From Roseateles sp. (lineage in GTDB: Bacteria; Pseudomonadota; Gammaproteobacteria; Burkholderiales; Burkholderiaceae_C), in contig JADMJQ010000121.1 in NCBI GenBank assembly GCA_018780415.1, forward strand, positions 1 through 36,029: 36,029 nucleotides of DNA. The letters run 5' to 3'. The notes beneath the pieces are model-generated. The model did no database searches, had not been told where the DNA came from, and saw only the letters and a list, made by a program, of their open reading frames with translations. This document shows, piece after piece, positions 20,911-35,979 of this stretch; position 1 is the stretch's first letter; the number at the start of each line of letters is the position of its first letter. Position numbers and translations under genes: made by a program.

Positions 20911-21990
20911 GTGGCAAGCAAAGCAGGGTCCAGCCCGACGATTATTGATGTGGCCGAGCAGGCCGGCGTGTCGATCAAGACCGTCTCGCGCGTGCTCAAT
21001 AACGAGGCCGGCGTGCAGGAGAAGACCCGCGAGCAAGTGCTCAAGGTCGTCGCTGCGCTGAAGTACCGGCCTAAATTGGCGGCCCGCAGCATGGGCGGCG
21101 GGCGCTCGTTTCTGATCGGCCTGCTCTATTACGACCCCAGCGCGGCCTTTGTCGGCGGGGTGCAGCAAGGCGCCACGCTGCGCTGCCGCGAGTCGGGCTA
21201 TCACCTGGTGGTCGAGTCCCTGCACAACGACTCGCCCGATATCTACAACCAGGTCGACCGGATGGTGGCCGCGCTGCGGCCGGACGGCATGATTTTGACG
21301 CCACCGCTGTGCGATAACCCGAAGGTGCTGCAGGCACTGCGCGACAGCGACACGCCCTTTGTGCTGCTGTCGCCGGGCCAGCAGCAGGCCGAGCAGTTCA
21401 GCGTGCGCATGGATGACGAGTTGGCGGCCGAGGAGGTGACGAATTTGCTGATCAGCCTGGGCCACGAGCGCATCGGGTTTATCAAGGGCGCACCCGATCA
21501 GGCGGCGTCTGAGCTGCGTTACCGCGGCTTTGTGCGGGCGATGCAGGCGCATGATTTGGCCGTCGACGCCAGCCTGGTTTGGGAGGGCAACTTCACCTTC
21601 CCCAGTGGCGTGGAAGGCGCGCACAAGCTGCTGAGCCGCAGCGTGCGGCCAACGGCGGTGTTCGCCAGCAATGACGATATGGCCTTGGGCGTGCTGGCGG
21701 CGGCGCAACGGCTGGGTTTGAATGTGCCGGCCGATTTGTCGATTGCCGGCTTCGATGATTCCAGTGCGGCCAGCTTGGTGTGGCCGCCGCTGACCACCGT
21801 GCGCCAACCGACCCATGAGATGGCCAGTGTGGCGGTGGAAATGCTGATCGCGGCCAAAGGCAGTGATGCCGAGGCGGCCACGCCGCTGAATTCTCATCGG
21901 GTGCTGCCCTACCAATTGCTGGTGCGCGACTCCACGCGCGCCCTGCATGCGGGCCAGGTGCCGCGCGCCAAGTCCGCGCCTAAAAAGTAA
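20911..21990 (+). CDS. LacI family transcriptional regulator, pentose locus (first)
   Basis: A 359-residue repressor. The N-terminal helix-turn-helix (TIIDVAEQAGVSIKTVSRVLNNEAGVQEKTREQVLKVVAALKYRPKLAARSM) with hinge helix is followed by a periplasmic-binding-like sugar domain (IGLLYYDPSAAFVGGVQQG, VFASNDDMALGVLAAAQ, IAGFDDSSAASLVWPPLTTVRQP). It starts at GTG 20911, with AAGGAC 7 nt upstream. It is convergent with the transaldolase gene (12 nt apart) and probably responds to xylose or xylo-oligosaccharide. A paralogue lies at 29342, beyond the far end of the operon. Which of the two binds the operator upstream of the beta-xylosidase gene cannot be told. Confidence 0.92.
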   Translation: MASKAGSSPTIIDVAEQAGVSIKTVSRVLNNEAGVQEKTREQVLKVVAALKYRPKLAARSMGGGRSFLIGLLYYDPSAAFVGGVQQGATLRCRESGYHLVVESLHNDSPDIYNQVDRMVAALRPDGMILTPPLCDNPKVLQALRDSDTPFVLLSPGQQQAEQFSVRMDDELAAEEVTNLLISLGHERIGFIKGAPDQAASELRYRGFVRAMQAHDLAVDASLVWEGNFTFPSGVEGAHKLLSRSVRPTAVFASNDDMALGVLAAAQRLGLNVPADLSIAGFDDSSAASLVWPPLTTVRQPTHEMASVAVEMLIAAKGSDAEAATPLNSHRVLPYQLLVRDSTRALHAGQVPRAKSAPKK

Positions 21991-22002: not shown

Positions 22003-22977
22003 TCAGGCGGCAGGCTCGGTACGCTGTTGCTGTTGACGAATCATCTGCTCCAGAGCCTCGGTGTCGGCCTTGAATTGCGCAATACCTTGCCGCAGCTTTT
22101 CGCTGGCCATCGGGTTGGCGCCGAGTGCGGCCTCAAAGCCGGCCTGGGTCAGCGCCGCCGGGCTGGGCTCAAGCTCGCCTTCATGGGGGCGAAGCTGGGC
22201 GGCGACCGGCGCGCTCGACGCGGCCAGTTCGGCCAGCAGACCCGGGCTGATCGTCATCAGATCGCAGCCGGCCAGCGCCAGGATCTGGCCGCAGTTGCGA
22301 AAGCTGGCCGCCATCACTTCGGTGCGGATGTCGTGGCGTTGGTAGTGCCGAAAAATCTCCACGACCGAGCGCACGCCGGGGTCATTGGCGCCGGCTTGGC
22401 TGCCCTCATCCCAGCCGGCGCCGGCGGCATTTTTGTACCAGTCATAGATGCGGCCGACAAAGGGCGAGATCAAACGCACGCCGGCATCGGCGCAGGCCTG
22501 GGCCTGGGCCAAACAGAACACCAAGGTCAGATTGGTGTGGATGCCAATGGCCTCCAGTTGACGGGCCGCTTGTATGCCCTCCCAGGTCGCGGCCAACTTG
22601 ATCAGCACCCGTGCACGCGGTATATCGGCCGCGGCGTACAGCGCAATCAGGCGCTGGGCTGAGGCGACCGAGGCCGGCGTGTCGTAGCTCAGGCGCGGAT
22701 CGATTTCGCTGGAGACCCGGCCCGGCACCAAATGAAGAATTTCAATGCCAAAACTCACCAGCAGATGTTCGGCGACGCTTCCGGCGCTGGCGCCCGGATG
22801 GTCGGCGACGGCGCGTTCCAGCAGCGCCAAATAACGCGGCGACTGCACGGCCTTGAGCACCAGCGAGGGGTTGGTGGTGGCGTCCTGCGGGCGGAACTGC
22901 AAGAGCTGTTCAAAGTCACCGGTGTCGGCGACCACGGTCGTGTGCTGACGCAGTTGTTCGAGGCTGTTCATAGGCAT
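22003..22977 (-). CDS. tal: Transaldolase
   Basis: This enzyme interconverts sedoheptulose 7-phosphate plus glyceraldehyde 3-phosphate with erythrose 4-phosphate plus fructose 6-phosphate. The 324-residue protein is of the TalB type. It has DATTNPSLVLKA (about residues 32-43), the Schiff-base lysine K127 in RVLIKLAATWEGIQAA, and the later block NLTLVFCLAQAQACADAGVRLISPFVGRIYDW. As the last gene of the xylose operon it feeds xylulose 5-phosphate carbon into glycolysis. Two ATGs (22977 and 22971) are possible, and neither has a strong ribosome binding site. It lies 27 nt after xylB. Confidence 0.96.
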   Translation of the reverse strand: MPMNSLEQLRQHTTVVADTGDFEQLLQFRPQDATTNPSLVLKAVQSPRYLALLERAVADHPGASAGSVAEHLLVSFGIEILHLVPGRVSSEIDPRLSYDTPASVASAQRLIALYAAADIPRARVLIKLAATWEGIQAARQLEAIGIHTNLTLVFCLAQAQACADAGVRLISPFVGRIYDWYKNAAGAGWDEGSQAGANDPGVRSVVEIFRHYQRHDIRTEVMAASFRNCGQILALAGCDLMTISPGLLAELAASSAPVAAQLRPHEGELEPSPAALTQAGFEAALGANPMASEKLRQGIAQFKADTEALEQMIRQQQQRTEPAA

Positions 22978-23004
22978 GGCTGGGCTGGTGTGGCTTGGGG
23001 GGAT

Positions 23005-24477
23005 TCAGGCGAACTCTTGGCACAGCGCGCCGTACAGGCGCTGGAAGCGGGCATGGCGGGGCAGCAACGCGGCCGCCAGCGCGGCATCGGGCTCGGCCAC
23101 ACGGGCGATCTCGGGTGCGCGGCAGACCTCGTCCGGCGCGCCGCCGCAGGCCAGCCAAGCCAGCCGCGCCGCACCGAGCGCGCCGCCGGCCTCGGCGCCG
23201 ACGCCGCTCACCAGGCGGGTGTTCAGCAGCGAAGCCAACAGCGTCGCCCACCAGTCGCTGCGCGCGCCGCCGCCGACCAGGGCCAATGACTCCGCGCCGC
23301 CACCATCAGCGGTCAGCGCTTGCCAGCCGTCCAGCAGACCGAAGCCGACGCCTTCCAGCACCGCATAACCGAGCGCCGCAGCGTCATGCTCGTGGGTCAG
23401 GCCGAAGAACACGCCGGTGGCGTTGGCGTTGTTGTGCGGCGTGCGCTCACCGCTGAGATAGGGCAAAAAGATCGGCGCTTGCGCGCGCTGGCTGGCGGTC
23501 AGCCGAGACACTTTTTCGATCAAGACCGCCTCGTTCGCTTGGCCCAGCATTTGCGTGGCCCAGCGCAGCGAGCTGGCGGCGCTGAGCATCACGCTCATCT
23601 GGTGCCAGGTAGCGGGCAGGGCGTGGCAGAAGGCGTGCACCGCCCGCGCTGCCGTGATTGGATTTGGTCGGAACTTGTCATTGCACAAAAAAATCACGCC
23701 CGAGGTGCCCAGCGACAGAAAGCCCTGGCCCGGCCGCACCGCGCCCATGCCGACCGCGCTGGCGGCGTTGTCTCCGGCGCCGCCCGCTATCGGGATACCT
23801 GCGGGCAAACCCCAGCGCTGCGCCAGCTCGGGTTTGAGGGTGGCGCTGATCTCGCTGCCCTCGACCAGGCGCGGCATATTGCTCTTGTCCAGCCCCGTCA
23901 GGGCCAGCGCCTCCGCCGACCAGCGGCGATTCGCTACGTCCAGCCAAAGCGTGCCGGCGGCGTCGCTCATCTCGCTGACATGCTCGCCGCTCAAGTGCAG
24001 GCGCAGCCAGTCCTTGGGCAGCAGCACCTTGTCGGCCTGTGCGAACAGATCCGGCTCATGGCTGCGCATCCAGGCCAGCTTGGGCGCCGTGAAGCCCGGC
24101 ATCGCCAGATTGCCGGTGATGGCCGGCAGCTCGGGGCAGGCCGCCATCATCTGCGTGCATTCGGCGGCGCTACGGCCGTCGTTCCAGAGGATGGCCGGGC
24201 GCAGCACCCGGTCGGCCGCGTCCAGCACCACCGCGCCATGCATCTGCCCCGACAGGCCTATGCCTTGCACGCGGGCGAGGGCGCCCGCGTGATCCTGCTT
24301 CAGCTGCGCCATGCCGCGGTCCAACGCAGCCCACCACTCGGCGGGTTGCTGCTCGCTCCACAGCGGCTGTGGCCGTTGAACCGTCAGCGCGACGCCGGTG
24401 GTGGCGATGATGCGGTGCTGCTCGTCGAGCAGCAATAGCTTCAGCTCGGAAGTGCCGAGGTCGATGCCAAGAAACAT
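23005..24477 (-). CDS. xylB: Xylulokinase
   Basis: This 490-residue FGGY-family kinase phosphorylates D-xylulose to xylulose 5-phosphate with ATP. The N-terminal MFLGIDLGTSELKLLLLDEQ is the phosphate-binding fold, and GLSGQMHGAVVLD and RPAILWNDGRSAAEC are xylulokinase signatures. The catalytic base is the Asp in GGAGDNAASAVG, and a second nucleotide-binding block is LALVGGGARSDWWATLLASLL near the C-terminus. The ATG is only 3 nt after the xylA stop codon, so translation is likely coupled. The length matches E. coli XylB. Confidence 0.96.
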   Translation of the reverse strand: MFLGIDLGTSELKLLLLDEQHRIIATTGVALTVQRPQPLWSEQQPAEWWAALDRGMAQLKQDHAGALARVQGIGLSGQMHGAVVLDAADRVLRPAILWNDGRSAAECTQMMAACPELPAITGNLAMPGFTAPKLAWMRSHEPDLFAQADKVLLPKDWLRLHLSGEHVSEMSDAAGTLWLDVANRRWSAEALALTGLDKSNMPRLVEGSEISATLKPELAQRWGLPAGIPIAGGAGDNAASAVGMGAVRPGQGFLSLGTSGVIFLCNDKFRPNPITAARAVHAFCHALPATWHQMSVMLSAASSLRWATQMLGQANEAVLIEKVSRLTASQRAQAPIFLPYLSGERTPHNNANATGVFFGLTHEHDAAALGYAVLEGVGFGLLDGWQALTADGGGAESLALVGGGARSDWWATLLASLLNTRLVSGVGAEAGGALGAARLAWLACGGAPDEVCRAPEIARVAEPDAALAAALLPRHARFQRLYGALCQEFA

Positions 24478-24480
24478 GGT

Positions 24481-25806
24481 TTAGACGAAGTTGTTGACGA
24501 TGTTTTCGAGGCGCTCCTGGCGACCCGAACGCGGTTGCGGCGAGATGCCTTGAGCGTGCACCAACTGAGCCAGATCGTCGAGGCCGGCCCCCGCCTGGAT
24601 GCGTTTGCCCAGATCCCCATTCCAGCCCGCATAACGCTCGCTGACGACGTTCTCCAGCTGGGCGCTGCTGTACAGCTCGGCGGCGCTCAAGAAGGCGCGC
24701 GCCATCGTGTCCATGCCGCCGATATGACCTTCGATCTGGTCGATGGGATCGATGCTCTGGCGCCGCACCTTGGCGTCGAAGTTGGTGCCGCCTGTGGTGA
24801 AGCCGCCGGCGCGGATGATCTCCAGCATCGCCGGCACCAGGGCCGCGTGGTTATTGGGGAATTGGTCGGTGTCCCAGCCTAACTGCTCATCGCCACGGTT
24901 GGCGTCGATGCTGCCGAAGATGCCAAGCGCACAGGCGGTCGCGACCTCATGCTCGAAGCTGTGGCCGGCCAAGGTGGCGTGGTTGACCTCCAGATTGACC
25001 TTGACCTCGTTCTCCAGGCCATAGGTTTTCAGGAAGCCGTAGACGGTGGCGCTGTCGTAGTCGTACTGGTGCTTGGTCGGCTCTTGCGGCTTGGGCTCGA
25101 TCAGGATCGCGCCCTTGAAACCGATCTTGTGCTTGTGCTCGACCACGGCCGAGAGGAAGCGGCCGTACTGGGCCAGCTCGCGCTTGAGGTCGGTATTGAG
25201 CAGGGTTTCGTAGCCTTCGCGGCCGCCCCACAGCACATAGTTCTCGCCACCCAGCCGGTTCGTCCACTCCAGCACATGCTTGACCTGGGCGCCGGCATAG
25301 GCGAACACCTCGGGGTCCGGGTTTGTGGCTGCGCCACTCATATAGCGGCCGTGCGAGAACAGATTGGCCGTGCCCCAGAGCAATTTGACTCCACCGTCCT
25401 GCATCTTCTTGGCGGCCGCGTCTAACAGGCCGTCGAGGATGCGGTTGGTCTCGGCCAGGCTGGCGCCTTCGGGGGCGACATCGCGGTCATGGAAGCACCA
25501 GTAGGGCAGGCCTAGCTTCTGGAAGAAATCAAAGGCGGCGTCCAGCTTCAGATGCGCGGCCTTGACCGGGTCGCTTTCCGCAAACCAGGGTCGCTGGAAC
25601 ACGGTGTTGCCGAGGCCGAAGATGTCCTCGCCCTTCCAGCAGAAGTTGTGCCAGTAGCAGACCGCCGGGCGCAGATGCTCGGCCAGGGTCTTGCCCAGCA
25701 CCACGCGCTTGGCGTCGTACCAGTGGTAGGCCAGTGGGTTGCTGGACTTTGGGCCTTCGTATTGGATGTTAGGGATTTCAGAGAAGACGGTGTTGGCGGT
25801 GCTCAT
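24481..25806 (-). CDS. xylA: Xylose isomerase
   Basis: This enzyme converts D-xylose to D-xylulose. The 441-residue protein is the longer, class II form. Catalytic His106 and Asp109 lie in FHDRD. Metal and substrate residues are Glu237 and Lys239 ([17 protein letters not shown]), Glu273 and His276 ([12 protein letters not shown]), and Asp301, Asp312 and Asp314 ([20 protein letters not shown]). [16 protein letters not shown] is another conserved block. All key residues are present. The start codon at 25806 has AAGGAAG about 7 nt upstream. It sits 15 nt after the transporter gene and 3 nt before xylB in the same operon. Confidence 0.98.
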
Positions 25807-25821
25807 GATGGGCTTCCTTGG

Positions 25822-27330
25822 TTAAACGGGGGAAAGATTGGCTTCGAGGCGGCGCCGGGCCAGCTCGTCGGCCATTTGCAGCGTGGTCTTTTTCGTCAGC
25901 TTGTTGGCGAGCAGGCAGATCGCGCAGGCGGCGAACAGCAGGGCCACGACCAGGCTGGAGGTGACGCGGTAGCCGTGCACGGCATCGGCGGCTGCCGGCA
26001 GCTGGGTGTCGTAGTTGAAGAAGCCGGCCAGCAGCCACAGCAGGCTGGCCGAGCCCAGGGCCAGGCCGACCTTGAGCGAGAAACCGATGGTCGCGAACAC
26101 CATGCCGGTGAAGCGGCGGCCGGTCTGCCATTCTGAAAAATCGGCCGCATCGGCATACATGGACCACATGATGGCGCAGGTCGGCGCATAGACGATGGCG
26201 CCCAGCATGGCCAGGCCCACCATGGCCCAGACATCGGTCGGCACCAGCAGATACATAGCAGCGGCGGTGACGGCCGACAGCGCAAAACAGGTGGCGGCGA
26301 CCGAGCGCTTGCCGAAGCGCGCGCTTAAGGACGTGGACAGCATGATGACGATGATGGTGGTGCCGGTGCCGACCATATTGACGATGCTGTTGAAAACATC
26401 GGCGACATTGGAATTGGCGATGCTGTCCCTTGTGCCATGGACGATATAGCCGAGCGAATCGAGCAGTCCGCCTGACTTGGCTGCGTCGGCGCTGGTCAGA
26501 CCGAGCGTCTCGACAAAGTCGAACATCGCGGCCTTGTCGGCGAAGTGGTGGTAGTAGTTGTAGTGCGCGCCGCCGCGCAGGGCCAGCATGGCGAAATGGA
26601 ACAGCGTGTAGCAGACCAGGGCGATCCAGGGGCCGTTCATGAGCAGGTCGGCAAAGTCCTGCTTGGGCGAGCTCTTGACCTGGCTGATAGTCTTGATGCG
26701 CTCCTTGGTGGTGAAGAAGGTCACCATGAACAGCAGCAGGCAGGCGGCGGCCCAGATCGACATCGTGACCTGCCAGCCATGCTGGCGGTCGGCGCCTTGG
26801 GCGAACTTGGCGACCAGGGGCAGGGTCAGGCCGCCGACGACGAACTGGGCGATATTGACCGACACGAAGCGGAAGGAGTTCAGCTTGGTGCGCTCGTTCA
26901 GGTCCGCCGTCATCACCCCACCCAGGGCCGAGTACGGCATATTGTTCATCGAGTACAGCGTCATCAAGAGCGCGTTGGTGATGCCGGCGTAGGCGACCAC
27001 CATGGTGACGCTCCAGCCCCAGGCCGGGTCGGGCGTGGTGTAGGCCATCACCATCACCACGGCCCAGGGCACGGCGGTCCACAGAATCCAGGGCCGGAAC
27101 TTGCCCCAGCGCGTCTCGGTGCGGTCGGCCAGCACGCCCATGATGGGATCGAACACGGCATCCCACAGCCGCGGCCACAGCAGGATGGCCGCCGCCGTGC
27201 TGGCGCTGAGGCCGAACACATCGGTGTAGAAGTTCAGCTGGAACAGCACCATGGTCATGAAGACCAAATTCGCGGCGGCGTCTCCGGCGCTGTAGCCGGC
27301 CTTTTCGATGAAGGAAAGTGGCGCGTTCAT
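25822..27330 (-). CDS. GPH family (MFS) xyloside/sugar transporter
   Basis: A 502-residue sugar:cation symporter with about 12 membrane helices. The N-terminal pattern (MNAPLSFIEKAGYSAGDAAANLVFMTMVLFQLNFYTDVFGLS, then RLWDAVFDPIMGVLADRTETRWGKFRPWILW) is that of the glycoside-pentoside-hexuronide family, which includes xyloside transporters. The cytoplasmic beta-xylosidase encoded upstream implies import of xylo-oligosaccharides, although free xylose cannot be excluded. It is longer than usual because of a hydrophilic segment of about 60 residues in the middle (about 255-320, beginning HNYYHHFADK). It is 64 nt from the end of the GH43 gene and 15 nt before xylA. Confidence 0.93.
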   Translation of the reverse strand: MNAPLSFIEKAGYSAGDAAANLVFMTMVLFQLNFYTDVFGLSASTAAAILLWPRLWDAVFDPIMGVLADRTETRWGKFRPWILWTAVPWAVVMVMAYTTPDPAWGWSVTMVVAYAGITNALLMTLYSMNNMPYSALGGVMTADLNERTKLNSFRFVSVNIAQFVVGGLTLPLVAKFAQGADRQHGWQVTMSIWAAACLLLFMVTFFTTKERIKTISQVKSSPKQDFADLLMNGPWIALVCYTLFHFAMLALRGGAHYNYYHHFADKAAMFDFVETLGLTSADAAKSGGLLDSLGYIVHGTRDSIANSNVADVFNSIVNMVGTGTTIIVIMLSTSLSARFGKRSVAATCFALSAVTAAAMYLLVPTDVWAMVGLAMLGAIVYAPTCAIMWSMYADAADFSEWQTGRRFTGMVFATIGFSLKVGLALGSASLLWLLAGFFNYDTQLPAAADAVHGYRVTSSLVVALLFAACAICLLANKLTKKTTLQMADELARRRLEANLSPV

Positions 27331-27394
27331 GGGTCTCCTGGCTTGTCTCTGATGTATTTATGCGGGCCTCGGGGCCGGGTCGAAAGGCTGGTTC

Positions 27395-29050
27395 TTAGGG
27401 CCGGGCTTCGTAGTCGAAATAGTCGAAGTCCGCATGCAGGCGCGTGCCCGCCAGATCCTGGCAGGCCAGGGCGATGAAGTTGCCGGTGAAGCCGAAGGCG
27501 CGCGCATAGCCGCCTTCGAAGCGGGTGACGGCCTCGTCGCTGAGCATGGCGGTCTCGAACGCCGGGCCTATCGTCCGCCAATCGCTGCCCGCTTGGGCGT
27601 AGGAAAACTGGAACTGCGCGTGGCTGAACTCCAGGCGCAGATCGACCGGGCCGTCCGCCAGCTCGACCGCCTGCGCCGGCTCGGTCAGCGCACCGTCCCG
27701 GTTCAGATAGACCCGCAGCACGCGTGCCCCGCCGTCCAAGGCGCGGCTGACATTGAGGTAGGCGTGATTGCCGGTGTTGTAGTAGGCCAGCAGGCCGGCC
27801 ATTTGATGGAAGTTCGCGGGCTCGAAGGCGAGCCGGGTCTCGGCGCGGCAGTTGAAATGCTGCTGCCGGCGCGCCACCAGGCTTTGTTCAAACAAGCTCA
27901 TCAGCGACTCGCGGCCCTTCAGCCGAAGATGGCCGGGGCGCTCGGTCAGTGAGATCCAGCTGGCGTCGAAGGGCAGGCGCAGCGCGTTCAAATGCGGGCT
28001 CAATTGCGGCGCATCGAAGTCATCGCGCAGCGCCTCGGCGGGCCAGGGGTGGGCCGGCAGATCGGGGGCGTCCACCAGCACGCGGGGCTGGTTGCTGCCG
28101 GCGTGAATTTCGGGCCAGTCGTCGGTGCGCCAAGTCAGTGGCTGCAGCGCGGTCTCGCGGCCCAGCGGGCAATGCAGGCCGCTGTAGTCGACCTCACCGT
28201 TGAGGTCGGGCGCTTTTTTGCCGGCGTTCGGGCCACTCCATTCCAGCGGGCGGCCACACAGATGTGCCATCCACCAATCACCCTGGGCGGTCTGCACCAG
28301 GCTGGCATGGCCGGCGCGCTGCAGGCCGTCGGTCTGGCGCTGGTAGGCGGTCAGCAAGGGCTTGCCCGGCATGGTCTCGTAGGGCCCGTCGATCTGGCGC
28401 GAGCGCGCCAGCGTCACCGTGTGCTCGTAGAAGGTGCCGCCCTCGGCCGTCAGCAGGTAGTAATAACCGTTGCGGCGGTACAGGTGCGGGCCCTCGACCA
28501 CGCCGCGCTCGGTGCCGGCGTAGATGTTCTTGATCGGCCCCACCAGCTTGCCCGCAGCGCGGTCGTATTCCTGCAACAGGATGCCGTTGAAATTGTGTTG
28601 GCCGGGATGGTGCAGCCATTGCTGGTTGAGCAACCAGGTTTTGCCATCCTCATCGTGGAACAGGCTGGGATCAAAGCCTGAGCTGTTCAGATAGATGGGC
28701 TCGCTCCAGGGGCCGTCCATGCTTGGCGCGGTGACCAGGTAGTTGTGCGAGTCCTTGTAGGCGCCGTACATGCTGCGCACATCGGTAAAGATGAGCCAGA
28801 ACTGGCCATGCGCATGGCTCAGGCAGGGCGCCCAGATGCCGCAGGAGTCGGGGTGGCCGATCAGGTCGAGCTGGCTGCGGCGGGTCAGGGCATAGCTGTG
28901 ATGGCGCCAGTTCACCAGATCGCGCGAATGGTGGATGCGCACCGCCGGCCACCATTCAAAGGTGGAGGTGGCGATGTAGTAATCGTCACCGACGCGCAGC
29001 ATCGAGGGGTCGGCGTGAAAGCCGGGCAGTATGGGATTCGAGATCGTCAT
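27395..29050 (-). CDS. xynB: GH43 beta-xylosidase (subfamily 11 type), cytoplasmic
   Basis: This enzyme releases xylose from the non-reducing end of xylo-oligosaccharides. The 551-residue protein has a five-bladed propeller with Asp14 (FHADPS, base), Asp127 (GFDPSLF) and Glu186 (VVEGPHLY, acid), at the same numbers as in the well-studied Selenomonas SXA enzyme. The C-terminal beta-sandwich (from about residue 330) supplies part of the active site. Arabinofuranosidase activity is a common side reaction. There is no signal peptide, so it should act on imported sugars. It is the first gene of the operon xynB-transporter-xylA-xylB-tal, with a promoter and operator upstream. No good ribosome binding site precedes the ATG. 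Confidence 0.96.
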   Translation of the reverse strand: MTISNPILPGFHADPSMLRVGDDYYIATSTFEWWPAVRIHHSRDLVNWRHHSYALTRRSQLDLIGHPDSCGIWAPCLSHAHGQFWLIFTDVRSMYGAYKDSHNYLVTAPSMDGPWSEPIYLNSSGFDPSLFHDEDGKTWLLNQQWLHHPGQHNFNGILLQEYDRAAGKLVGPIKNIYAGTERGVVEGPHLYRRNGYYYLLTAEGGTFYEHTVTLARSRQIDGPYETMPGKPLLTAYQRQTDGLQRAGHASLVQTAQGDWWMAHLCGRPLEWSGPNAGKKAPDLNGEVDYSGLHCPLGRETALQPLTWRTDDWPEIHAGSNQPRVLVDAPDLPAHPWPAEALRDDFDAPQLSPHLNALRLPFDASWISLTERPGHLRLKGRESLMSLFEQSLVARRQQHFNCRAETRLAFEPANFHQMAGLLAYYNTGNHAYLNVSRALDGGARVLRVYLNRDGALTEPAQAVELADGPVDLRLEFSHAQFQFSYAQAGSDWRTIGPAFETAMLSDEAVTRFEGGYARAFGFTGNFIALACQDLAGTRLHADFDYFDYEARP

Positions 29051-29107
29051 GATTATTGGAATTTTGGGCTGCCGGCTAGGCGAAACGCCGACCTAGGAAT
29101 GGTGAAA

Positions 29108-29121
29108 TGGTAACGCTACCA
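29108..29121. promoter_or_regulatory. LacI-family operator upstream of xynB
   Basis: TGGTA-ACGC-TACCA is a 14-bp palindrome with a central CG, the standard form of a LacI/GalR-family binding site. It lies 58 nt before the xynB start, directly downstream of a probable -10 box on the minus strand, where bound repressor would block transcription. No second copy was seen before the other genes of the locus. Confidence 0.8.
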
Positions 29122-29127
29122 ATTTCA

Positions 29128-29157
29128 AATACACTGCGGGTTTTCGCTAGTGTTGAA
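29128..29157 (-). promoter_or_regulatory. Probable promoter of the xylose operon
   Basis: On the minus strand TTCAAC (complement of 29152-29157) and TGTATT (complement of 29128-29133) form a -35/-10 pair with an 18-nt spacer. The LacI-type operator begins 6 nt after the -10 box. The fit to consensus is moderate and the position is good. Confidence 0.55.
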
Positions 29158-29260
29158 GGGCAGGGCGTAGTCCGGCTACAGTCCCGGTCGGCGCGCCTGC
29201 AGACTTGAACCTCAACGCTGCACTGGCGCGCTCTTAAAGCGCCCCCAGACCTGTCGCTTT

Positions 29261-29311
29261 GCGCCAGGCCCCCCGAGGGGGAGGAGAAACAACTTGGGAG
29301 CGGCCCGGCGT
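29261..29311. repeat. Burkholderiales-type extragenic repeat
   Basis: The segment has a GGCCCCCCGAGGGGG core (palindromic CCCCC/GGGGG arms), then a short spacer, CTTGGGAGCGGCCCGGCG and a T-rich end. From memory, near-identical CCCCCGAGGGGG...GGCCCGGCG elements are scattered through many Comamonadaceae and related genomes. Only one copy is in this window, so repetition cannot be shown here. It lies just before the second lacI-type gene. Confidence 0.5.
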
Positions 29312-29341
29312 TTTGTTTCTCATGATCATTCGAGGTAAAGA

Positions 29342-30403
29342 TTGAAACCAAGCCCCAGGGTAGGACGCAGCCCCAATGTCGCGACCGTGGCCGACGTCGC
29401 ACGTCTGGCCGGTGTGTCGCCGATGACGGTTTCGCGCGTGGTCAATGGCGAGCTGAATGTGCGCCCGGGCACGCGTGAAAAGGTGCAGGCGGCGGTCGCT
29501 GCGCTCAACTACCTGCCTAATCAAGCGGCCCGTCATCTGGCGGGCGCGGAGGCCATACGCATTGGCATGCTCTACAAAGACCCGAGCGCAGGCTACCTGA
29601 GCGAGTTCCTGATCGGTTTGCTCAACAAGGCCAGCTTGAGCCCGGTGCAATTGATTGTGCAGAAATGCGAGAGCCGCGAGCACGAGGCCGAGCAGGTCGC
29701 CGAGATGATGGCGAATGGCTTGGACGGGCTGATCCTGCCGCCGCCTTTTTGCGATTCGCAGGCACTGCTGAAGCTGGTCACCGACACCGGCCTGCCCGCC
29801 GTGACCGTCTCCAGCGGCCAAGCGCTGGCGGATGTTTGCGGCGTCGGCATTGATGACTATCAGGCCGCCTATGTGATGACCGGGCATTTGCTAGCGCTGG
29901 GCCACCATCGCCTCGGCTTCATCATGGGCGACCCCAACCAGACCTCCAGCGCGCGCCGTTTGGGCGGTTTCCATGCGGCGATGAGCGATGCCGGCCTGAA
30001 TATCGCCGAGGAGGAGGTGATCGCCCAGGGCATGTTCACCTATCGCTCCGGCCTGGAGGCGGCCGAGTTTTTGCTGAGCCAGCAGCGGCGGCCGACGGCG
30101 ATCTTCGCCAGCAACGACGATATGGCCGCCGCCACGGTGGCGATCGCCCACCGCCTGGGCTTCGACGTGCCGGGCGACTTGACGGTGGTGGGCTTCGACG
30201 ATGCGCCGCTGGCCACCACCATCTGGCCCGAACTGACCACCGTGCGCCAGCCCATCATGGAAATGGCGGCCGCGGCGGTGGACCTCTTGGTGCGCCAGAT
30301 ACGTGGCCGGCGCAGCGGTGAGGCGGCCCATTGCGAGCAGGTGCTGATGGACTTTGAGCTGATCCGGCGGCAGTCCGATGCCGCGCCACAGCTATCGACT
30401 TGA
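29342..30403 (+). CDS. LacI family transcriptional regulator, pentose locus (second)
   Basis: A 353-residue regulator. The helix-turn-helix (TVADVARLAGVSPMTVSRVVNGELNVRPGTREKVQAAVAALNYLPNQAARHLAG) and sugar-binding domain (IGMLYKDPSAGYLSEFLIGLL, IFASNDDMAAATVAIAHRLG, VVGFDDAPLATTIWPELTTVRQP) are clear. It is a paralogue of the regulator at 20911. The start is TTG at 29342, with GAGGT 5 nt upstream; no ATG fits. It is divergent from xynB across a gap containing the LacI-type operator, making it the leading candidate for the operon repressor. It runs convergently into the halogenase-oxygenase operon with a gap of only 7 nt. Confidence 0.92.
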   Translation: MKPSPRVGRSPNVATVADVARLAGVSPMTVSRVVNGELNVRPGTREKVQAAVAALNYLPNQAARHLAGAEAIRIGMLYKDPSAGYLSEFLIGLLNKASLSPVQLIVQKCESREHEAEQVAEMMANGLDGLILPPPFCDSQALLKLVTDTGLPAVTVSSGQALADVCGVGIDDYQAAYVMTGHLLALGHHRLGFIMGDPNQTSSARRLGGFHAAMSDAGLNIAEEEVIAQGMFTYRSGLEAAEFLLSQQRRPTAIFASNDDMAAATVAIAHRLGFDVPGDLTVVGFDDAPLATTIWPELTTVRQPIMEMAAAAVDLLVRQIRGRRSGEAAHCEQVLMDFELIRRQSDAAPQLST

Positions 30404-30410: not shown

Positions 30411-32666
30411 TCAGCCGGCCAGCTTGGCGCTCTTGAAAAACGCGTTGACGGTCAAGCGGCCCAGGCCGGCTTGATAGGCGGCCGGCGGCCCCTGGATATC
30501 GCCGGAATGGAAGATGCTGCCGTCGTAAAAAACCGCCCGGTTCCATTTCGCCGGCACCCGCCCGATGACCTCGAAATAGCGGTTGCTCTGCGTCATATAG
30601 CTCGCTGGGATACCGTATTTCTCGCCGAATTCATGGCCGCTCATCGATTTGGCATCGGCCAGGAAGTCTTGCGTGGCCGGCTCGGACATCAGTGAGCGGA
30701 ACAAGACCGTGCCGCCGAGCTGTTCGTCACCGAATAGATAGTGGACCAGGGCGCACATCATCTGGCCAGGCTCAAGGCCGGAGTCGTCGCGGTGGCAGGT
30801 GCGCTGGCGGGCGTCCAGCGTCGTGCTGTCCTGGGTGACGCGTGAAAAGCGGCCATACATGCCTTGCGCGGGGCCGGCATGCAGGCGGGCGCGCAGATGC
30901 TGGTGGAAATAGGCGTCGAGTTGCGCGGCCAGCGCCGGCGGCAGGTCGAGCTGCGGGCCAGGATAGGGGTGGCCGGGCGGGATGTGGAACTGGTCAGCGA
31001 CCGACTGGGCCAAACGCACCAAGCCATCCGGGTCCTGCACGAAGTCGTCGATGACGAAGACCTGCTGTCCGTTCGTCAGTGCTATGGTCTGAATAGCGGG
31101 CTGCGGATTGAGCAGCAGGGCGGGCATGGCGGCAACAGGAGCGGCAGCTGCGGGCTTGGGCGCGGCATAGAGCCGGCTGACATAGTCCTGGTGCTTGGGC
31201 AACTTGATCAAGCTGCGTGCGGCTTCCTTGCGAATCTCGCCGAGAAATTCGCTCAGGTCGGCGTTGTCCATCTGGCGTGTCACCGGGTGGTGGGCGCTGG
31301 GCGTGATGCCCTGGCCCATCATCACCTGGATCCAGGAGTTGTCGCGGAACAGCTCGTCGGCATCGAGGCAGACACGGGCCGAATCCCTGAACAACTGGAT
31401 GCGATGCGCCAGCAACTTAGGCACCGCCATCTCGCGGCATTCACGCCAGAAGGCGGCGTCGCTGCGATTGTTGACGTGGTAGTGCAGGATGATGAAGTCG
31501 CGAATGGTTTCTATGGCCGTGCGTGACTGCTCGTTGTACTCGTCGATATCGCTCTGGCAAATGCCGTCGGCCGGGAACATCTGGATCAGCCGCGTCAAGC
31601 CGCGTTGAATCAGGTGAATGCTGGTCGACTCGATCGGCTCCAGGAAGCCGCTGGACAGGCCGATGGCGACGCAGTTGCGCTTCCACACCAGCTCGCGCTG
31701 GCCGGGGGTGAACTTGATCACGCGCGGTGGCCGCATCACCTCGCCCTGCACATGGGCCAAGAGTGCGGCCTTGGCCGCCTCGTCGTCGAGGTGCTTGCTG
31801 CTGAAGACCAGGCCGTTGCCGACCCGGTGCTGCAGCGGGATCTGCCATTGCCAGCCCCAGGGATGGGCGATCGAACGGGTGTAGGGCACGGCCTCGCGGA
31901 CCGAAGCGGTCTGCACGGCGACGGCGCTGTCGCAGTGCAGCCATTCCGACCAATCCTGATAGGCCACGCCCAGCGTCTCGCCCAGCAGCAGGGAGCGCAT
32001 GCCGGTGCAGTCAATGAACAAATCGCCTTCGATCAGCGCGCCGCCGTCCAGGGTCAGTCCGGTGATGCCGCCGTTGCTGGCTTCTTGGCTGGTCTCGCTG
32101 TGAACCTTGACGATCTTGCCTTCGATGCGCTGCACGCCCAGGGCCTCGGAGTAGCGGCGCAAGTACTGCGCGTACAGGGTGGCGTCGAGGTGATAGGCAT
32201 AGTTCAAGCCGGCGTTGGGCAGATGGGCAAAGCGGTTGTCCATCGCCGCACGCAGTTCCAGGCAATAGTCGCCGTAGTCGCTGGCCAGGCCGCGCTTGCG
32301 GCCCTCCAGCCAGAAATGCTGGAAACCCGCCGTCCAATGCGGCTTGCCGGTAGTGCCGAAGGAATGGAAATAGTCCTCGCCCACATTGCGCCAGTTCTCG
32401 AAGCTGATGCCCAGCTTGAAGGTGGCCTGCGTGGCGGCCATGAACTCGCGCTCGTCGATACCAAGAATTTCGTGAAAGAAATGCAGGGTCGGGATGGTCG
32501 CTTCGCCGACGCCTATGGTGCCAATTTCTTCCGACTCGATCAGGCGGATCTCATACAGCCGCCCCAAACTTTTGGAGAGACCGGCCGCCACCATCCAGCC
32601 GGCCGTGCCGCCGCCGGCGATGACGATGCGGCGTACCGGTTTGGACGCGTAAGGTGCAGTGTTCAT
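30411..32666 (-). CDS. Flavin-dependent halogenase homologue fused to an Fe(II)/2OG-type oxygenase domain
   Basis: This 751-residue two-domain protein begins with a tryptophan-halogenase-type domain (about residues 10-500). It has the FAD motif GGGTAGW at 18-24, the catalytic Lys84 (ATFKLG), the halogenase signature WQWQIP at 272-277, and Glu346-Ser347 in FLEPIESTS at the same numbers as in PrnA. After an Ala/Pro linker (about 502-515), residues 535-751 form a second domain with His625, Asp627 (CHRDD), His720 (IFHSGD) and Arg737 (GRLTVNAFF). This is the iron-binding triad plus 2-oxoglutarate arginine of oxygenases; the domain looks like DUF6445 or a related prolyl-hydroxylase-like family, and that assignment is tentative. 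The substrate is unknown. It is the last gene of a four-gene operon. Confidence 0.88.
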   Translation of the reverse strand: MNTAPYASKPVRRIVIAGGGTAGWMVAAGLSKSLGRLYEIRLIESEEIGTIGVGEATIPTLHFFHEILGIDEREFMAATQATFKLGISFENWRNVGEDYFHSFGTTGKPHWTAGFQHFWLEGRKRGLASDYGDYCLELRAAMDNRFAHLPNAGLNYAYHLDATLYAQYLRRYSEALGVQRIEGKIVKVHSETSQEASNGGITGLTLDGGALIEGDLFIDCTGMRSLLLGETLGVAYQDWSEWLHCDSAVAVQTASVREAVPYTRSIAHPWGWQWQIPLQHRVGNGLVFSSKHLDDEAAKAALLAHVQGEVMRPPRVIKFTPGQRELVWKRNCVAIGLSSGFLEPIESTSIHLIQRGLTRLIQMFPADGICQSDIDEYNEQSRTAIETIRDFIILHYHVNNRSDAAFWRECREMAVPKLLAHRIQLFRDSARVCLDADELFRDNSWIQVMMGQGITPSAHHPVTRQMDNADLSEFLGEIRKEAARSLIKLPKHQDYVSRLYAAPKPAAAAPVAAMPALLLNPQPAIQTIALTNGQQVFVIDDFVQDPDGLVRLAQSVADQFHIPPGHPYPGPQLDLPPALAAQLDAYFHQHLRARLHAGPAQGMYGRFSRVTQDSTTLDARQRTCHRDDSGLEPGQMMCALVHYLFGDEQLGGTVLFRSLMSEPATQDFLADAKSMSGHEFGEKYGIPASYMTQSNRYFEVIGRVPAKWNRAVFYDGSIFHSGDIQGPPAAYQAGLGRLTVNAFFKSAKLAG

Positions 32667-32682
32667 GGCTACTTCCTACTAA

Positions 32683-33675
32683 CTAGCGATTCAGTCGGTT
32701 CAGCAGCACCGCGCGCAGATGGCGCGCGCGGTCCGACGTGATGGGGGCCAGCACACCTTGGGCGCTGGGTGGGATGTGGGCGGCGGTCTGCGCATCCGCA
32801 TCAAAAACATAATGCTCAAACAAGGCGGCCCAGGCCTGGCGCTGGGCCGGCGGCAGGTCGCGCAGCGTCATCAAGGCCAGCATCAAGGTGTTCATCGGTG
32901 AATCCATGAAGGCAGGGCTTTGCCGCCACCAGAAATTCACCAGCGCGCTGACCGGCTCCAGCGCCTCCACCGCATGCCACCAGAGGCTGGGGATGAAGAT
33001 CGCGTCACCGGGCGCCAACTCGACGGTCTGCGCATGTGCCAGCGCCTGTGCGTAGCGCGGGAAGCGATTGAGGTCGGGCTTGGCAATATCGACCAAGCTA
33101 ATGGCTTGCCCTGCCGGTGTCAGGTCCAGCGGGCCGATATAGAGATTGGCGACCTGTTCGGGAGGGAACAGCGTGAAGCGGCGCCGCCCGGCGACGACAC
33201 AGGCGATATTGTCCGGCAGGTCAAAGTGGGCGGCGACGCGCACCCGGTTGCCCAGCCACAGGCTGACCAAGGGGTCGGCCACATTCAGCTTCAAGTCATT
33301 GCCCTGGCGCAGGCCGGGGAAGGAACCGTCCAGCTCGGTGGAGCCCAGATAGAGCGCCGGCGGTGCCGGGTCATCTGCATGCGCCAGCAACTCGTCCAGC
33401 AGGGCGTCGAAGCGGCCAATCTCGCGTTGATAGTTGAAGCCGCTGAACTCAGCGTTATAGAAAAAGCGCCCCTCTATGTCTGGCGCGCCGCGCCAGAGGC
33501 CAACCTTGGTGGCGCCGCCAAATCCGCGCAGGTAGTCGCAAAACTGCCGCTCCGACTGCAGCGCCGCCTGCACCAGCGGCCAATGCCGCACCAGGCCGCG
33601 CAGCAGCACCGGCTGGGTGCTCTGCAGCAAGTCGGCCGGCAGGGCGTCGGTCACCAGGGCGTTGCGCTCAAGCAT
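32683..33675 (-). CDS. Cupin-like (JmjC-type) Fe(II)/2OG oxygenase homologue
   Basis: A 330-residue protein of the Cupin_8 group, related to FIH-type asparaginyl hydroxylases and tRNA/ribosomal oxygenases. Metal ligands are His150 and Asp152 (AAHFDLPDN) and His234 (SLWWHAVEAL). LRGLVRHWPLVQ at the start, VVAGRRRFTLFPPEQ and PGDAIFIPSLWWHAV are family signatures. It probably hydroxylates a protein or small-molecule substrate, which is unknown. AGGAGG lies 9 nt before the ATG, overlapping the end of the sapC-like gene 4 nt upstream. The next gene, the halogenase-oxygenase fusion, follows after 16 nt. Two oxygenase-type domains in one operon are notable. Confidence 0.9.
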   Translation of the reverse strand: MLERNALVTDALPADLLQSTQPVLLRGLVRHWPLVQAALQSERQFCDYLRGFGGATKVGLWRGAPDIEGRFFYNAEFSGFNYQREIGRFDALLDELLAHADDPAPPALYLGSTELDGSFPGLRQGNDLKLNVADPLVSLWLGNRVRVAAHFDLPDNIACVVAGRRRFTLFPPEQVANLYIGPLDLTPAGQAISLVDIAKPDLNRFPRYAQALAHAQTVELAPGDAIFIPSLWWHAVEALEPVSALVNFWWRQSPAFMDSPMNTLMLALMTLRDLPPAQRQAWAALFEHYVFDADAQTAAHIPPSAQGVLAPITSDRARHLRAVLLNRLNR

Positions 33676-33679
33676 AGAG

Positions 33680-34420
33680 TTAGGCCTCCTGAGCGAGGTG
33701 CAAGCGAATCAAGGTGTGCAGATTCGACAGCGAGGCAATCGCCATATAGATAGGCAGCAGGTAATCGGCCTGGTGCAGCAGACCGATGGTCTTTTCGTCC
33801 AGCGCCGCCAGGCGTTCCTCGTGGATGGTGTGCAGACCGACCAAGCGGCCGTGGGTGCCGTCCGGGCGCTCGACATCCAGCACAAAAGGCTCCAGCAATC
33901 CATGCGCGACCAGGGCCTCGACGAAGGCGGGCGTGGCTTGCAGGCCCTCGTGCAAGGCCTTCAGTACCGAGTTGGCTTGTTCCAGAAATTCGCTGCTGCC
34001 GCCCTGCGGCAAGAACACGGCGACGCCCTCGGCACCTTGACCGATGCGCGGGCTGGCCATGTCCACCAACATCCGCAACTCATCGTCGTTGACGCCAATC
34101 ATGAAGGGCTCACGTTGCATGGCCAGCGGGATATAGGGCACGGTCCAACCGTCCGGGTCGAGAAACAGGTTTTGACCGTCCTGCAGGCCGAACAAGGCCA
34201 GGGGCTGCATTTGGCCCTGGGCATCGCGCTGAAAAACAATCGGGTAATGCACTTGCAGCTTGCGGAATTCGTCCGGTGTGACGAGGCAGGACATCACCGC
34301 ATCGCCCCACGCTGCGCCGCGCCGGGTGATGACGCGCAGGTCCTGGTGGCTGATGTTGTTGAGCAGTTCTGGGTTTTGCATGGCGATGGAGTTCGGGCTG
34401 AAGTGGACGCTGGCATTCAC
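33680..34420 (-). CDS. SapC family protein
   Basis: A 246-residue protein of the SapC family, named after an S-layer-linked protein of Campylobacter. The pattern is PELLNNISHQDLRVITRRGAAWG, then CLVTPDEFRKLQVHYPIVFQRD, LFLDPDGWTVPYIPLAMQREPF and a C-terminal HTIHEERLAALDEKT. Its biochemical function is unknown. The GTG start at 34420 overlaps the stop codon of the upstream halogenase gene (GTGA), indicating coupled translation. The ATG at 34381 (MQNPELLNN) is an alternative that would fit the conserved part better. Members of this family often lie next to TonB-dependent receptors and tryptophan-halogenase-like genes. Confidence 0.9.
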   Translation of the reverse strand: MNASVHFSPNSIAMQNPELLNNISHQDLRVITRRGAAWGDAVMSCLVTPDEFRKLQVHYPIVFQRDAQGQMQPLALFGLQDGQNLFLDPDGWTVPYIPLAMQREPFMIGVNDDELRMLVDMASPRIGQGAEGVAVFLPQGGSSEFLEQANSVLKALHEGLQATPAFVEALVAHGLLEPFVLDVERPDGTHGRLVGLHTIHEERLAALDEKTIGLLHQADYLLPIYMAIASLSNLHTLIRLHLAQEA

Positions 34421-35979
34421 CGTGATGGCATGCCGTGCGCATGGATGTGCTGGATCAGATCGCGGTGGCGGGGCAGGCCGCCCAGCAACCGTTTGGTGGC
34501 GGTCGCGGCGCTCTGGAAGCAGGCCTGCGCCTGCGCCAGGCGGGCGGGGCGGGGGGCGGCTATGGCGGGTTTGAAGCCCATGCCGTAGAGCACGTATTGG
34601 TAGCTGGCGGCGGGGAAGACCTCGTCGATCCGGAACAGATCATTTCTGAACGGCGCCCGGTGCTGCCAGAGTTGCAGCAGCTCGCCCAGGCGCTCGGGCA
34701 GGGTGCCTGTGCAGCGGTGGTCGCGCCGGTAGTCGGCGTCATCGCGCTGGCTCAAGACGTAATGCAGCTTGAGGAAATCGATGATGCGGGCCCAGCGGTA
34801 CTCGAAGGCGTCATTGAAGCGTCGGCCCACGAGGTCCATATCGGCGCGATTGGCCGGCAGCTCATCCCGGATCATCGCCGCCGACAACTCGACCAGCGCG
34901 AGCGCCGAGGCCTCCAGCGGTTCGATAAAGCCCGAGGACAGGCCCACGGCCACGCAGTTGCGGTGCCAGAAGCGCTCACGGTAGCCGGGCGTGAAACGGA
35001 TCAGGCGGGCCGGGGGCAGGTCGCTTGCTGCCGGCCCGCCGCTGCGCTCTACATACCGGCGCAGCGCGGCTTGCGCCGCTTCGTCGCTGGTGTGCGCGCT
35101 GGAAAACACCAGGCCGACGCCGCGCCGGGTCGGCAGGGCGATGTCCCAGGTCCAGCCTTGCGCATGCGCGGTCGAGATCGTCGCCGAGGCCAGCGGGGCA
35201 TTCGGGTCGGTGGTCGGTATCTGCAAGGCCAGCGCGCAGTCATTGAACAGCACCTGCTGCTGCGAGCGCAGGGCGATGCCGTAATGCTGCCCGATTAGCA
35301 GCGCGGCCATGCCGGAACAGTCGATGAAGAGGTCGGCGGCGATGTCACCGTGCTCGCGGGTCTGCAGCGCGGCGATGTCGCCGTTGTCATGGCTGAGCAC
35401 CGCCGTGACCTCGGCCAAGACATGGCGCACGCCCAGCTTGTCTATCGTGTGTTTGCGCAGCAGCAGGCCCAGCTTGACGGCATCGAAGTGATAGCCGTAG
35501 TTGGCGACGGCGGCGAATTCCGGGGTGCTGGTCTGCTTAGGCCCCAAGGCCGCATCGCACAGATGGGGTTGGGGGCTGACGCAGTCAGCGAACGAGGTTG
35601 CGGTCGATGCATGCAACCAGCCGCCGACCAGATCGGCCTCGCCATAGCCCTGCGGCAGCGAGAACGGGTGGTAGTAGCGGTCGCCGTCGCTGCCGTCGCG
35701 GCCATGGACCCAGCCGTCAAAGCGCGAGCCCTGCTTGAACGCGGCGTCGCACTCGCGCACCAGATCGACCTCGCTGAGGCCGATACGCTGCAGTGTTTCG
35801 CGCATCGAAGGCCAAGTGCCCTCGCCGACGCCGATGGCAGGCGCGGTCGGGGATTCGATCAAGGTGATCTGCAAGGCTTGCGCGTCATTGCCGCCATGTT
35901 CCGCAGCCAACAGCGCCGCCGTCAACCAGCCCGCCGAGCCGCCCCCCAGCACCACGACGCGTCTGATCGCATCCGTCAT
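34417..35979 (-). CDS. Tryptophan halogenase family flavoprotein, variant active site
   Basis: A 520-residue homologue of flavin-dependent halogenases. The FAD motif GGGSAGW is at 12-18, Lys82 (AAFKQG) matches the catalytic lysine, and Glu346 is kept in FIEPLEAS. Two positions differ from the standard enzymes: the WxWxIP signature reads WTWDIA (276-281), and the serine after the catalytic glutamate is Ala347. The flavin site looks intact, but halogenation of tryptophan should not be assumed. The ATG at 35979 has an AGGG about 6 nt upstream. It is the first visible gene of the operon; promoter and any TonB-dependent receptor gene would lie beyond 36029. No redox partner (flavin reductase) is visible in the window. 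Confidence 0.9.
   Translation of the reverse strand: MTDAIRRVVVLGGGSAGWLTAALLAAEHGGNDAQALQITLIESPTAPAIGVGEGTWPSMRETLQRIGLSEVDLVRECDAAFKQGSRFDGWVHGRDGSDGDRYYHPFSLPQGYGEADLVGGWLHASTATSFADCVSPQPHLCDAALGPKQTSTPEFAAVANYGYHFDAVKLGLLLRKHTIDKLGVRHVLAEVTAVLSHDNGDIAALQTREHGDIAADLFIDCSGMAALLIGQHYGIALRSQQQVLFNDCALALQIPTTDPNAPLASATISTAHAQGWTWDIALPTRRGVGLVFSSAHTSDEAAQAALRRYVERSGGPAASDLPPARLIRFTPGYRERFWHRNCVAVGLSSGFIEPLEASALALVELSAAMIRDELPANRADMDLVGRRFNDAFEYRWARIIDFLKLHYVLSQRDDADYRRDHRCTGTLPERLGELLQLWQHRAPFRNDLFRIDEVFPAASYQYVLYGMGFKPAIAAPRPARLAQAQACFQSAATATKRLLGGLPRHRDLIQHIHAHGMPSR

Follow-up and report, generated by a model that had tools for sequence, protein, structure and literature searches.

Flavin-dependent halogenases, which are recognised by a catalytic Lys and Glu (K79 and E346 of PrnA) and a WxWxIP motif, classically act on small molecules, while the flavoproteins MibH and QhpG act on peptide-bound tryptophan. 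Among the oxygenases, an HxD...H motif with a distal Arg is the signature of Fe(II)/2-oxoglutarate (2OG) dioxygenases, and FIH and JMJD5 are protein hydroxylases, FIH binding 2OG through a Lys. To our knowledge, no function has been assigned to the protein of PDB entry 2PYX and no biochemical function defines the SapC family. According to the main texts of the two papers on the halogenases Xcc4156 and BrvH, both enzymes act in vitro on indole and its derivatives and neither halogenates free tryptophan (PMC7336383, PMC5945002), indole turnover by BrvH is slow (PMC5945002), and the native substrate is recorded as unknown for BrvH and three Xanthomonas halogenases (PMC7336383), as it is for the Xcc4156 type. 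BrvH was compared with the peptide halogenase MibH (PMC5945002), a comparison drawn in both papers. TonB and SapC are mentioned in neither main text (PMC7336383, PMC5945002), and the main text on TonB carbohydrate-utilisation (CUT) loci mentions neither halogenase, SapC, oxygenase nor tryptophan (PMC1790865). We found no description in the open-access literature of the cassette reported here, nor of a role in this setting for SapC, Cupin_8 or DUF6445.

The window analysed, a 36,029-nt stretch of Roseateles sp. DNA, carries four minus-strand open reading frames encoding HalA, SapC, Cupin_8 and a HalB-DUF6445 fusion (Table 1), all with Pfam scores far above the cut-offs (21 bits for PF04820, 28.9 bits for PF07277 and 24 bits for PF20043). 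The reading frames and Pfam matches bear out the four-gene, one-strand operon of a preliminary description, as well as its gene types, although the halogenase domains number two rather than three, one as a separate protein and the other in the fusion. Its spacings of 4 nt and 16 nt also stand, but a 4-nt overlap between HalA and SapC, which would result if SapC started at GTG 34420 (34420-33680), was dropped after the start codons were compared with those of three Paucibacter orthologues. These have in common an ATG matching window position 34381 and do not keep the preceding stretch as a reading frame; SapC thus probably starts at ATG 34381, making the junction a probable 35-nt gap.

Table 1. 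Coordinates of the operon and neighbouring features in the window.
Feature	Coordinates	Strand	Description
HalA	34417..35979	-	520 aa, operon gene 1; flavin-dependent halogenase homologue, 2PYX relative; PF04820 374 bits
SapC-family protein	33680..34381	-	233 aa from probable ATG; PF07277 218 bits
Cupin_8 / FIH-like Fe(II)/2-oxoglutarate oxygenase homologue	32683..33675	-	330 aa; PF13621 242 bits
HalB-DUF6445 fusion	30411..32666	-	751 aa; PF04820 611 bits and PF20043 208 bits on one ORF
HalB halogenase domain, Xcc4156 type	31266..32630	-	residues 13-467; PF04820 coordinates; 688 bits to 6Y1W
DUF6445 domain, probable Fe(II)/2OG oxygenase	30435..31106	-	residues 521-744; HxD...H...R pattern
50 nt between HalA and contig end	35980..36029	-	upstream TonB receptor gene inferred to continue on contig C83
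LacI regulator	20911..21990	+	directly after operon in Paucibacter; 91-94.5% identity to L019-L021
Xylose block	22003..30403	.	between operon and its LacI; outside cassette; absent at site in L019, L020 and L021

Receptor, halogenases, oxygenase-like proteins and SapC form a conserved unit in the order TonB receptor - (HalA) - SapC - Cupin_8 - (HalB) - (DUF6445), headed by the receptor gene, which comes first in 84 of 85 receptor chains. HalB, HalA, Cupin_8, SapC and DUF6445 are each absent from some chains, and no single chemistry is therefore obligatory. The loci compared comprised 80 Cupin_8 loci (L084-L163) hand-picked from roughly 200 listed places (60 of family f13, 20 of them chosen for low score, 11 of f31 and nine others) and 60 SapC loci (L024-L083), one per genome, of which 40 were taken by descending score, four came from genomes of the same family or order and 16 were hand-picked among the matches listed. 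Among the 60 Cupin_8 loci with scores of 400 bits or more, 55 form a same-strand chain with a receptor and 57 have an adjacent SapC gene; such a receptor chain was also found at 13 of the 20 low-scoring loci; in L142, which was omitted from the receptor alignment, Cupin_8 lies on the other strand. In a tally of 116 genomes of one family, covering receptor places that scored 400 bits or more (64 of 86 rows, the 22 weaker rows being left out) and at most seven scored receptor candidates per genome, such that receptors may be undercounted, 39 of 40 Cupin_8 places lie directly downstream of one receptor subfamily on the same strand, at 909-3145 bp, and the sole exception is a broken gene. Conversely, of the 42 receptor places that reach 500 bits, 39 are accompanied by Cupin_8, and the remaining three by SapC and a halogenase instead. 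From the 22 receptors scoring 400-500 bits, ten were fetched; two halogenase genes adjoin a receptor of this range in L209.

Protein distances of the cassette members track those of the receptor (Mantel r 0.68-0.88 over 45 loci, 28 for DUF6445, and at most 0.30 in 500 permutations, with species descent uncontrolled). Recurrence beside TonB-dependent receptors, as stated in the preliminary description, is supported by the counts at 60 loci and in 116 genomes, and the neighbourhood data fail to refute co-inheritance, for which scattered homologues had been named as the refuting observation. Co-inheritance suggests, without proving, that the enzymes alter the receptor or something that the receptor handles.

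The window is an entire contig that ends at position 36029, 50 nt upstream of HalA, and the TonB-dependent receptor expected to the right of that position was located on another contig of the same genome (C83:1-2865, minus strand), whose end cuts the receptor's C-terminus. This protein shares 85% identity with the L020 receptor (residues 2-960), whose gene immediately precedes the orthologous Paucibacter operon, and we infer that it adjoins HalA in its own genome. Receptors occupy the position directly upstream of the operon in L019-L023, with receptor-HalA gaps of 92-115 bp in Paucibacter, and the TIGR01782 scores are 598 bits for the L020 receptor and 538 bits for the cut own-genome receptor. 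Its neighbours on C83 (locus L192) encode GH1, glucokinase, a putative MFS transporter and GH5; from GH1, GH5 and glucokinase, we infer that the receptor transports a carbohydrate. No relative of the receptor was found in the PDB by sequence at E 0.001, and an AlphaFold model built from five sequences was set aside for its pLDDT of 33.

Both halogenases retain the catalytic Lys and Glu. HalB aligns almost end to end with Xcc4156 and matches BrvH (6FRL) with 464 bits; its Lys84 and Glu346 are invariant in 71/71 sequences and WxWxIP is kept in 69 of these. The nearest Xcc4156 relatives in the sampled set are themselves cassette HalBs, at 68% identity (L012, L066). HalA, for which 2PYX is the best PDB match (533 bits), has Lys82 and Glu356 invariant in all 63 HalA-type sequences from cassette loci; WxWxI is likewise present in 63/63, but with G, A, D or S where WxWxIP has Pro, and in 61 of the 63 the residue following the catalytic Glu is Ala instead of Ser. 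HalB is fused to DUF6445 in five ORFs (the window and L019-L022), and DUF6445 is a separate gene after HalB in 28 chains. With H625, D627, H720 and R737 invariant in 37/37 sequences, DUF6445 is a probable Fe(II)/2OG oxygenase. The Cupin_8 protein finds its best PDB match in FIH (E about 2e-16, with only about 110 residues aligned), and JMJD5 is also among the best. Its HxD...H iron triad is present in 87/87 sequences, all of which have Arg165 at the position of the FIH-type 2OG-binding Lys, a conservative change that may still allow 2OG binding; we class the protein as Cupin_8, FIH-like, and not as FIH. SapC had no relative by sequence in the PDB at E 10, and a profile of 28 sequences reached a best E of 1.3, which is chance level; its AlphaFold model (six sequences) was set aside for its pLDDT of 53.

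One receptor residue emerged as a lead, though not as proof, of where HalB might act. W538 (L020 numbering) ranks first of 950 receptor columns for tracking HalB, with no changes on HalB-bearing branches (71% of tree length) and six on HalB-lacking branches (p 5e-4 uncorrected), a signal that depends on three HalB transitions, is lost on correction over the 950 columns and would have a p of about 0.006 over the 11 Trp-consensus columns. It is present in the receptor of the window's own genome and kept in 5/9 receptors that lack a cassette gene in the short fetched stretch, where the alignment is gappy around it. W538 probably lies in an extracellular loop; it is a candidate HalB target, and may also be conserved simply for stacking on sugar. 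For the presence of HalA, even the best-tracking receptor column (p 0.0065 of 950) did no better than chance, and none survived correction over 950 for HalA, Cupin_8, SapC or DUF6445. W364, invariant in HalA-bearing receptors, was dropped as a HalA-linked residue on finding it in 9/9 receptors without an adjacent cassette gene.

The explanation we tentatively put first, at a little short of even confidence, is that the receptor undergoes oxidative modification by these enzymes ahead of its export, which would make the operon an oxidative-tailoring cassette dedicated to one subfamily of TIGR01782-type sugar receptors. The cassette enzymes have no visible signal sequence and would therefore work on the receptor precursor while it is still in the cytoplasm. 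There, HalB, and HalA where present, would target the receptor's aromatic side chains by oxidation or halogenation, W538 in its probable extracellular loop being the proposed HalB target; Cupin_8 and DUF6445 would hydroxylate other side chains, and SapC would recognise or hold the client protein. The effect of the modification would be to adjust how the receptor binds sugar or to shield it where it is exposed. That the proteins act jointly on one substrate, as first proposed, is plausible, and that substrate is possibly the receptor. Consistent with receptor modification are the pairing with one subfamily, the receptor-first chains, the tracking distances and the persistence of receptor and halogenase/SapC genes together amid changing glycan genes, to which the invariant catalytic residues, the open active site of homologues and the likeness to FIH and JMJD5 may be added, along with the rank of W538. 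There is also no room at the locus for a precursor-peptide gene, since no gap within the operon exceeds 35 nt and those between receptor and HalA in Paucibacter are 92-115 bp; a RiPP tailoring cluster of the MibH type, with its precursor gene in the cluster, was rejected on these grounds. Arguing against receptor modification are the caveats on W538, the lack of a tracking column for HalA, the dispensability of the enzymes and the Arg in Cupin_8. The fully specified version is more doubtful, though possible: one subfamily of outer-membrane sugar receptors would acquire halogen or hydroxyl groups at defined side chains ahead of export, with SapC as client-recognition factor and the ligand-side W538 as the HalB target.

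A rather unlikely but serious alternative is that the cassette produces or modifies a small aromatic compound, such as an indole, a phenol or the aromatic group of a glycoside, which the receptor imports or senses without being a substrate itself. The classical chemistry of the family and the in vitro activities of Xcc4156 and BrvH point this way, even if their inactivity on free tryptophan and the slow turnover of indole do not, and the pairing of receptor and enzymes is equally expected for uptake coupled to processing. A scan of 73 of the 132 listed flanking proteins yielded one tryptophan synthase alpha chain, a point in favour. Against it, no NRPS or PKS scaffold family is among the 25 of 82 Pfam families inspected, and the commonest neighbours were glycan and sugar-transport genes, with GH3 (14/73) and GH16 (7/73) the commonest glycan enzymes and sugar transporters at 9/73.

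Those same neighbours, the genes beside the own-genome receptor and a GH43 gene near one cassette would also fit membership of a polysaccharide pathway, with a substituted glycan, or the aromatic groups that decorate it, as the substrate of the enzymes. We judge this improbable: laminarin-type glucans carry no aromatic group, and receptor and halogenase/SapC genes stay together while the glycan genes vary, from beta-glucan type to none at one cassette and, for the shorter receptor-halogenase-SapC forms, to agar or galactan type, with agarase in one case and galactosidases in another. The coupling to xylan use suggested earlier was rejected on synteny. The xylose block, which comprises transaldolase, GH43 and a second LacI, identified by Pfam, and XylB, XylA and a transporter, named from sequence, separates the operon from its LacI in the window; in three of three Paucibacter loci (L019-L021) no such block is present at the site, and LacI directly follows the operon. 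That the halogenase-like and oxygenase-like proteins are co-regulated passengers, either sensors of redox state or oxygen, or unrelated enzymes that travel with a useful receptor, is very improbable, for although none of the enzymes is indispensable to every cassette and SapC commonly occurs without other cassette genes (49/60 fetched SapC loci), the cassette spans alpha- and betaproteobacteria and many genomes of the window's class, with gene order and key catalytic residues kept and gene distances tracking the receptor.

The cassette points to a precise partner, a single receptor subfamily together with, in the case of HalB, a single candidate residue. If receptor modification is correct, it would provide the missing natural substrate of Xcc4156-type halogenases, and perhaps also of the 2PYX and BrvH types, and would constitute a new kind of outer-membrane protein modification bearing on the bacterial uptake of algal and plant glucans. 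If the receptor is not modified, the pairing still shows where a small-molecule substrate must be sought.

Xcc4156 and BrvH were described as single enzymes with in vitro substrates, whereas HalB is here fused to DUF6445. The open active site of Xcc4156-type enzymes may admit peptides. The stretch of the 2PYX 'tryptophan halogenase' structure used for comparison is 83% identical over 329 aa to the cassette HalA of L152. MibH and QhpG are related flavoproteins; QhpG is the top NCBIfam match of HalA, yet at 42.6 bits against a cut-off of 240 the assignment of HalA as QhpG was rejected. FIH and JMJD5 have HxD...H in common with Cupin_8, which differs in its invariant Arg from the Lys of FIH. Finally, the CUT loci of Xanthomonas and Caulobacter, which we take this locus to resemble, place a TIGR01782 receptor near glycoside hydrolases and LacI, as here, whereas the cassette is also found without glycan genes.

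A widely conserved, receptor-linked cassette underlies what reads as an ordinary set of family names. In the window, which is contig C14 in full (36,029 bp), the minus-strand set of four genes reported in the preliminary description was borne out: HalA, SapC, Cupin_8 and a fusion of HalB with DUF6445. Its 4-nt and 16-nt gaps also stood; the 4-nt overlap did not, giving way to 35 nt (junctions of 35, 4 and 16 nt) if SapC starts at ATG 34381, which is likely preferable to GTG 34420 because it is common to three Paucibacter relatives. No signal peptide was evident by eye at any of the four N-termini, and the FAD-binding motif lies only a few residues from the N-terminus in both halogenases.

Using SapC as a query against genome contigs, we recovered five loci. 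Three are close orthologues from Paucibacter, with 84-86% identity, and a TonB-dependent receptor gene lies immediately upstream of the operon in 5/5. When the window's own genome was searched with the Paucibacter receptor, a single 85% match was obtained at the end of contig C83, which truncates it after residue 960 of 1027. This is a candidate for the receptor sought beyond position 36029, with C83 and C14 presumably neighbours in the genome. Beyond it, in the Paucibacter order, C83 carries genes for GH1, glucokinase, a putative MFS transporter, which matched no Pfam family at 1e-5, and GH5. The runner-up full-length match (53%) is the first gene of a second cassette, L012, whose HalB is 68% identical to the flavin-dependent halogenase Xcc4156. 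Two other loci of this genome, L015 and L011, are listed in the table.

Features in the window and in fetched loci (G000, the window's own genome)
Locus	Contig	Positions	Content
Window	C14	4965-10339	838-aa ORF, then two 476-aa ORFs resembling M16-type peptidases
Window	C14	20911-21990	LacI regulator
Window	C14	22003-30403	Xylose genes (8.4 kb)
L012	G000:C320	1041-7431	Receptor, SapC, Cupin_8, HalB, then GH16
L015	G000:C58	9475-15830	Second, lone DUF6445 gene between HalA-like gene and convergent TonB receptor
L011	G000:C268	10062-11573	HalB-type halogenase behind TonB receptor, no SapC or Cupin_8 nearby; also preceded by putative GH3, GH1 and ABC sugar transporter genes (reading of sequences)
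L199	Sphingomonas parapaucimobilis plasmid	4954-11528	Receptor-SapC-Cupin_8-halogenase unit
L035		9888-18650	SapC without cassette near 2,400-2,900-aa open frame
L031, L040, L054, L055, L058, L061			As L035

SapC was found in 123/348 Pseudomonadota genomes. Ten of 60 SapC loci fetched are receptor cassettes; one on a short contig (L067) has SapC, two halogenases and DUF6445, with no receptor visible, and the remaining 49 were counted as standalone. Of 80 Cupin_8 loci, 60 score at least 400 bits; SapC is adjacent in 57 of these, 56 have a halogenase and 55 a receptor chain. For the 20 weaker loci the figures are 6, 10 and 13, a fourteenth chain counted by script having Cupin_8 on the opposite strand. 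Across 85 receptor chains, the order receptor-HalA-SapC-Cupin_8-HalB-DUF6445 occurs in 23, the same without DUF6445 in 19, without HalB and DUF6445 in 11, and without HalA in 12 (DUF6445 also missing in 8). Of the rest, 16 have less common arrangements, in some of which SapC or Cupin_8 is missing, and four have the HalB-DUF6445 fusion, three of them with HalA. Besides the window, only L019-L022 have the fusion; in 28 chains HalB is followed directly by a separate DUF6445 gene, so the fusion unites neighbouring genes. A distant form without SapC (L125, L129, L138, L139, L141) consists of receptor, HalB-like gene, one or two Cupin_8 copies and a second HalB-like gene.

The proposed recurrence of the set beside TonB-dependent receptors held in a less selected test, 116 genomes of one family, where 39/40 Cupin_8 places are preceded, on the same strand, by a receptor scoring at least 500 bits, and the sole exception carries two stop codons. 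Conversely, 39/42 such receptors have Cupin_8 and the other three SapC plus a halogenase. Cupin_8 accompanies 0/22 receptors of 400-500 bits; of ten fetched, nine show no cassette gene within the fetched stretch and the tenth has a pair of halogenase genes. The cassette partner is thus essentially one receptor subfamily within TIGR01782.

Coupling of the operon to xylan use, suggested earlier, was not upheld. In the Paucibacter loci L019-L021 a LacI regulator, 91-94.5% identical to that of the window, directly follows the operon, and in L020 and L021 it is followed by HU, a sensor protein and one more protein, all with window counterparts. The xylose genes that separate operon from LacI in the window are absent at this site in 3/3 relatives; whether by gain here or loss there, the block was not inherited with the operon. 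Among 73 proteins scanned in the flanks of other cassettes were GH3 (14), MFS sugar transporter (9), GH16 (7), LacI (3), and one each of GH1, GH9 and glucokinase. On annotated plasmids, the Sphingobium cassette lies near GH16, LacI, MFS, GH3 and GH43, and a shorter receptor-halogenase-SapC form adjoins agarase and beta-galactosidase in Catenovulum and galactosidases in Pseudoalteromonas. The L199 unit, which has arsenic/sulfur genes on one side and a type VI secretion cluster on the other, has no glycan genes nearby.

Outside the cassette, 7/49 standalone SapC loci have a same-strand open frame of at least 2,400 aa within 4 kb; RTX calcium-binding repeats were found in one (L035) of three long frames scanned, and in Azospirillum brasilense SapC comes after a ~15 kb gene. 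A SapC role with surface proteins would fit, if weakly.

We aligned 84 cassette receptors with 13 from control loci. Of 41 columns identical across all 67 HalB-bearing receptors, W538 (L020 numbering) is the sole Trp and the least kept without HalB (6/17). On the 97-receptor tree, W538 changes 0 times on HalB-bearing branches (71% of length) and six times on the others. It is top-ranked among the 950 columns, with an uncorrected p of 5e-4 that becomes about 0.5 after correction over 950 columns and about 0.006 over the 11 Trp-consensus columns; HalB itself changed state only three times. As counter-evidence, W538 is also retained in 5/9 receptors whose short fetched stretch shows no cassette gene, and the alignment around it is gappy. 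In the same 950-column test, HalA had no comparable column. According to a low-confidence model and the sequence itself, W538 and W364 may lie in long inter-strand stretches, presumably extracellular in such barrels; sugar stacking would therefore explain the conservation of W538 equally well.

The catalytic residues are kept throughout: Lys and Glu in HalA (63/63) and HalB (71/71), HxD...H in Cupin_8 (87/87) and HxD...H...R in DUF6445 (37/37). That these enzymes modify the receptor is, in our view, the best single explanation, held tentatively; tailoring of a small molecule is a less likely alternative. Our search, which covered accessible open-access literature and left subscription papers and preprints outside its scope, found no description of the cassette. 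As to the known relatives of HalB, the active site of Xcc4156 and of BrvH is open because its loops are short. The alignment of HalB to Xcc4156 contains few gaps, so the corresponding loops of HalB are probably also short. The authors of the Xcc4156 structure suggest larger substrates, possibly peptides (PMC7336383), and those of BrvH compare it with the peptide halogenase MibH (PMC5945002).
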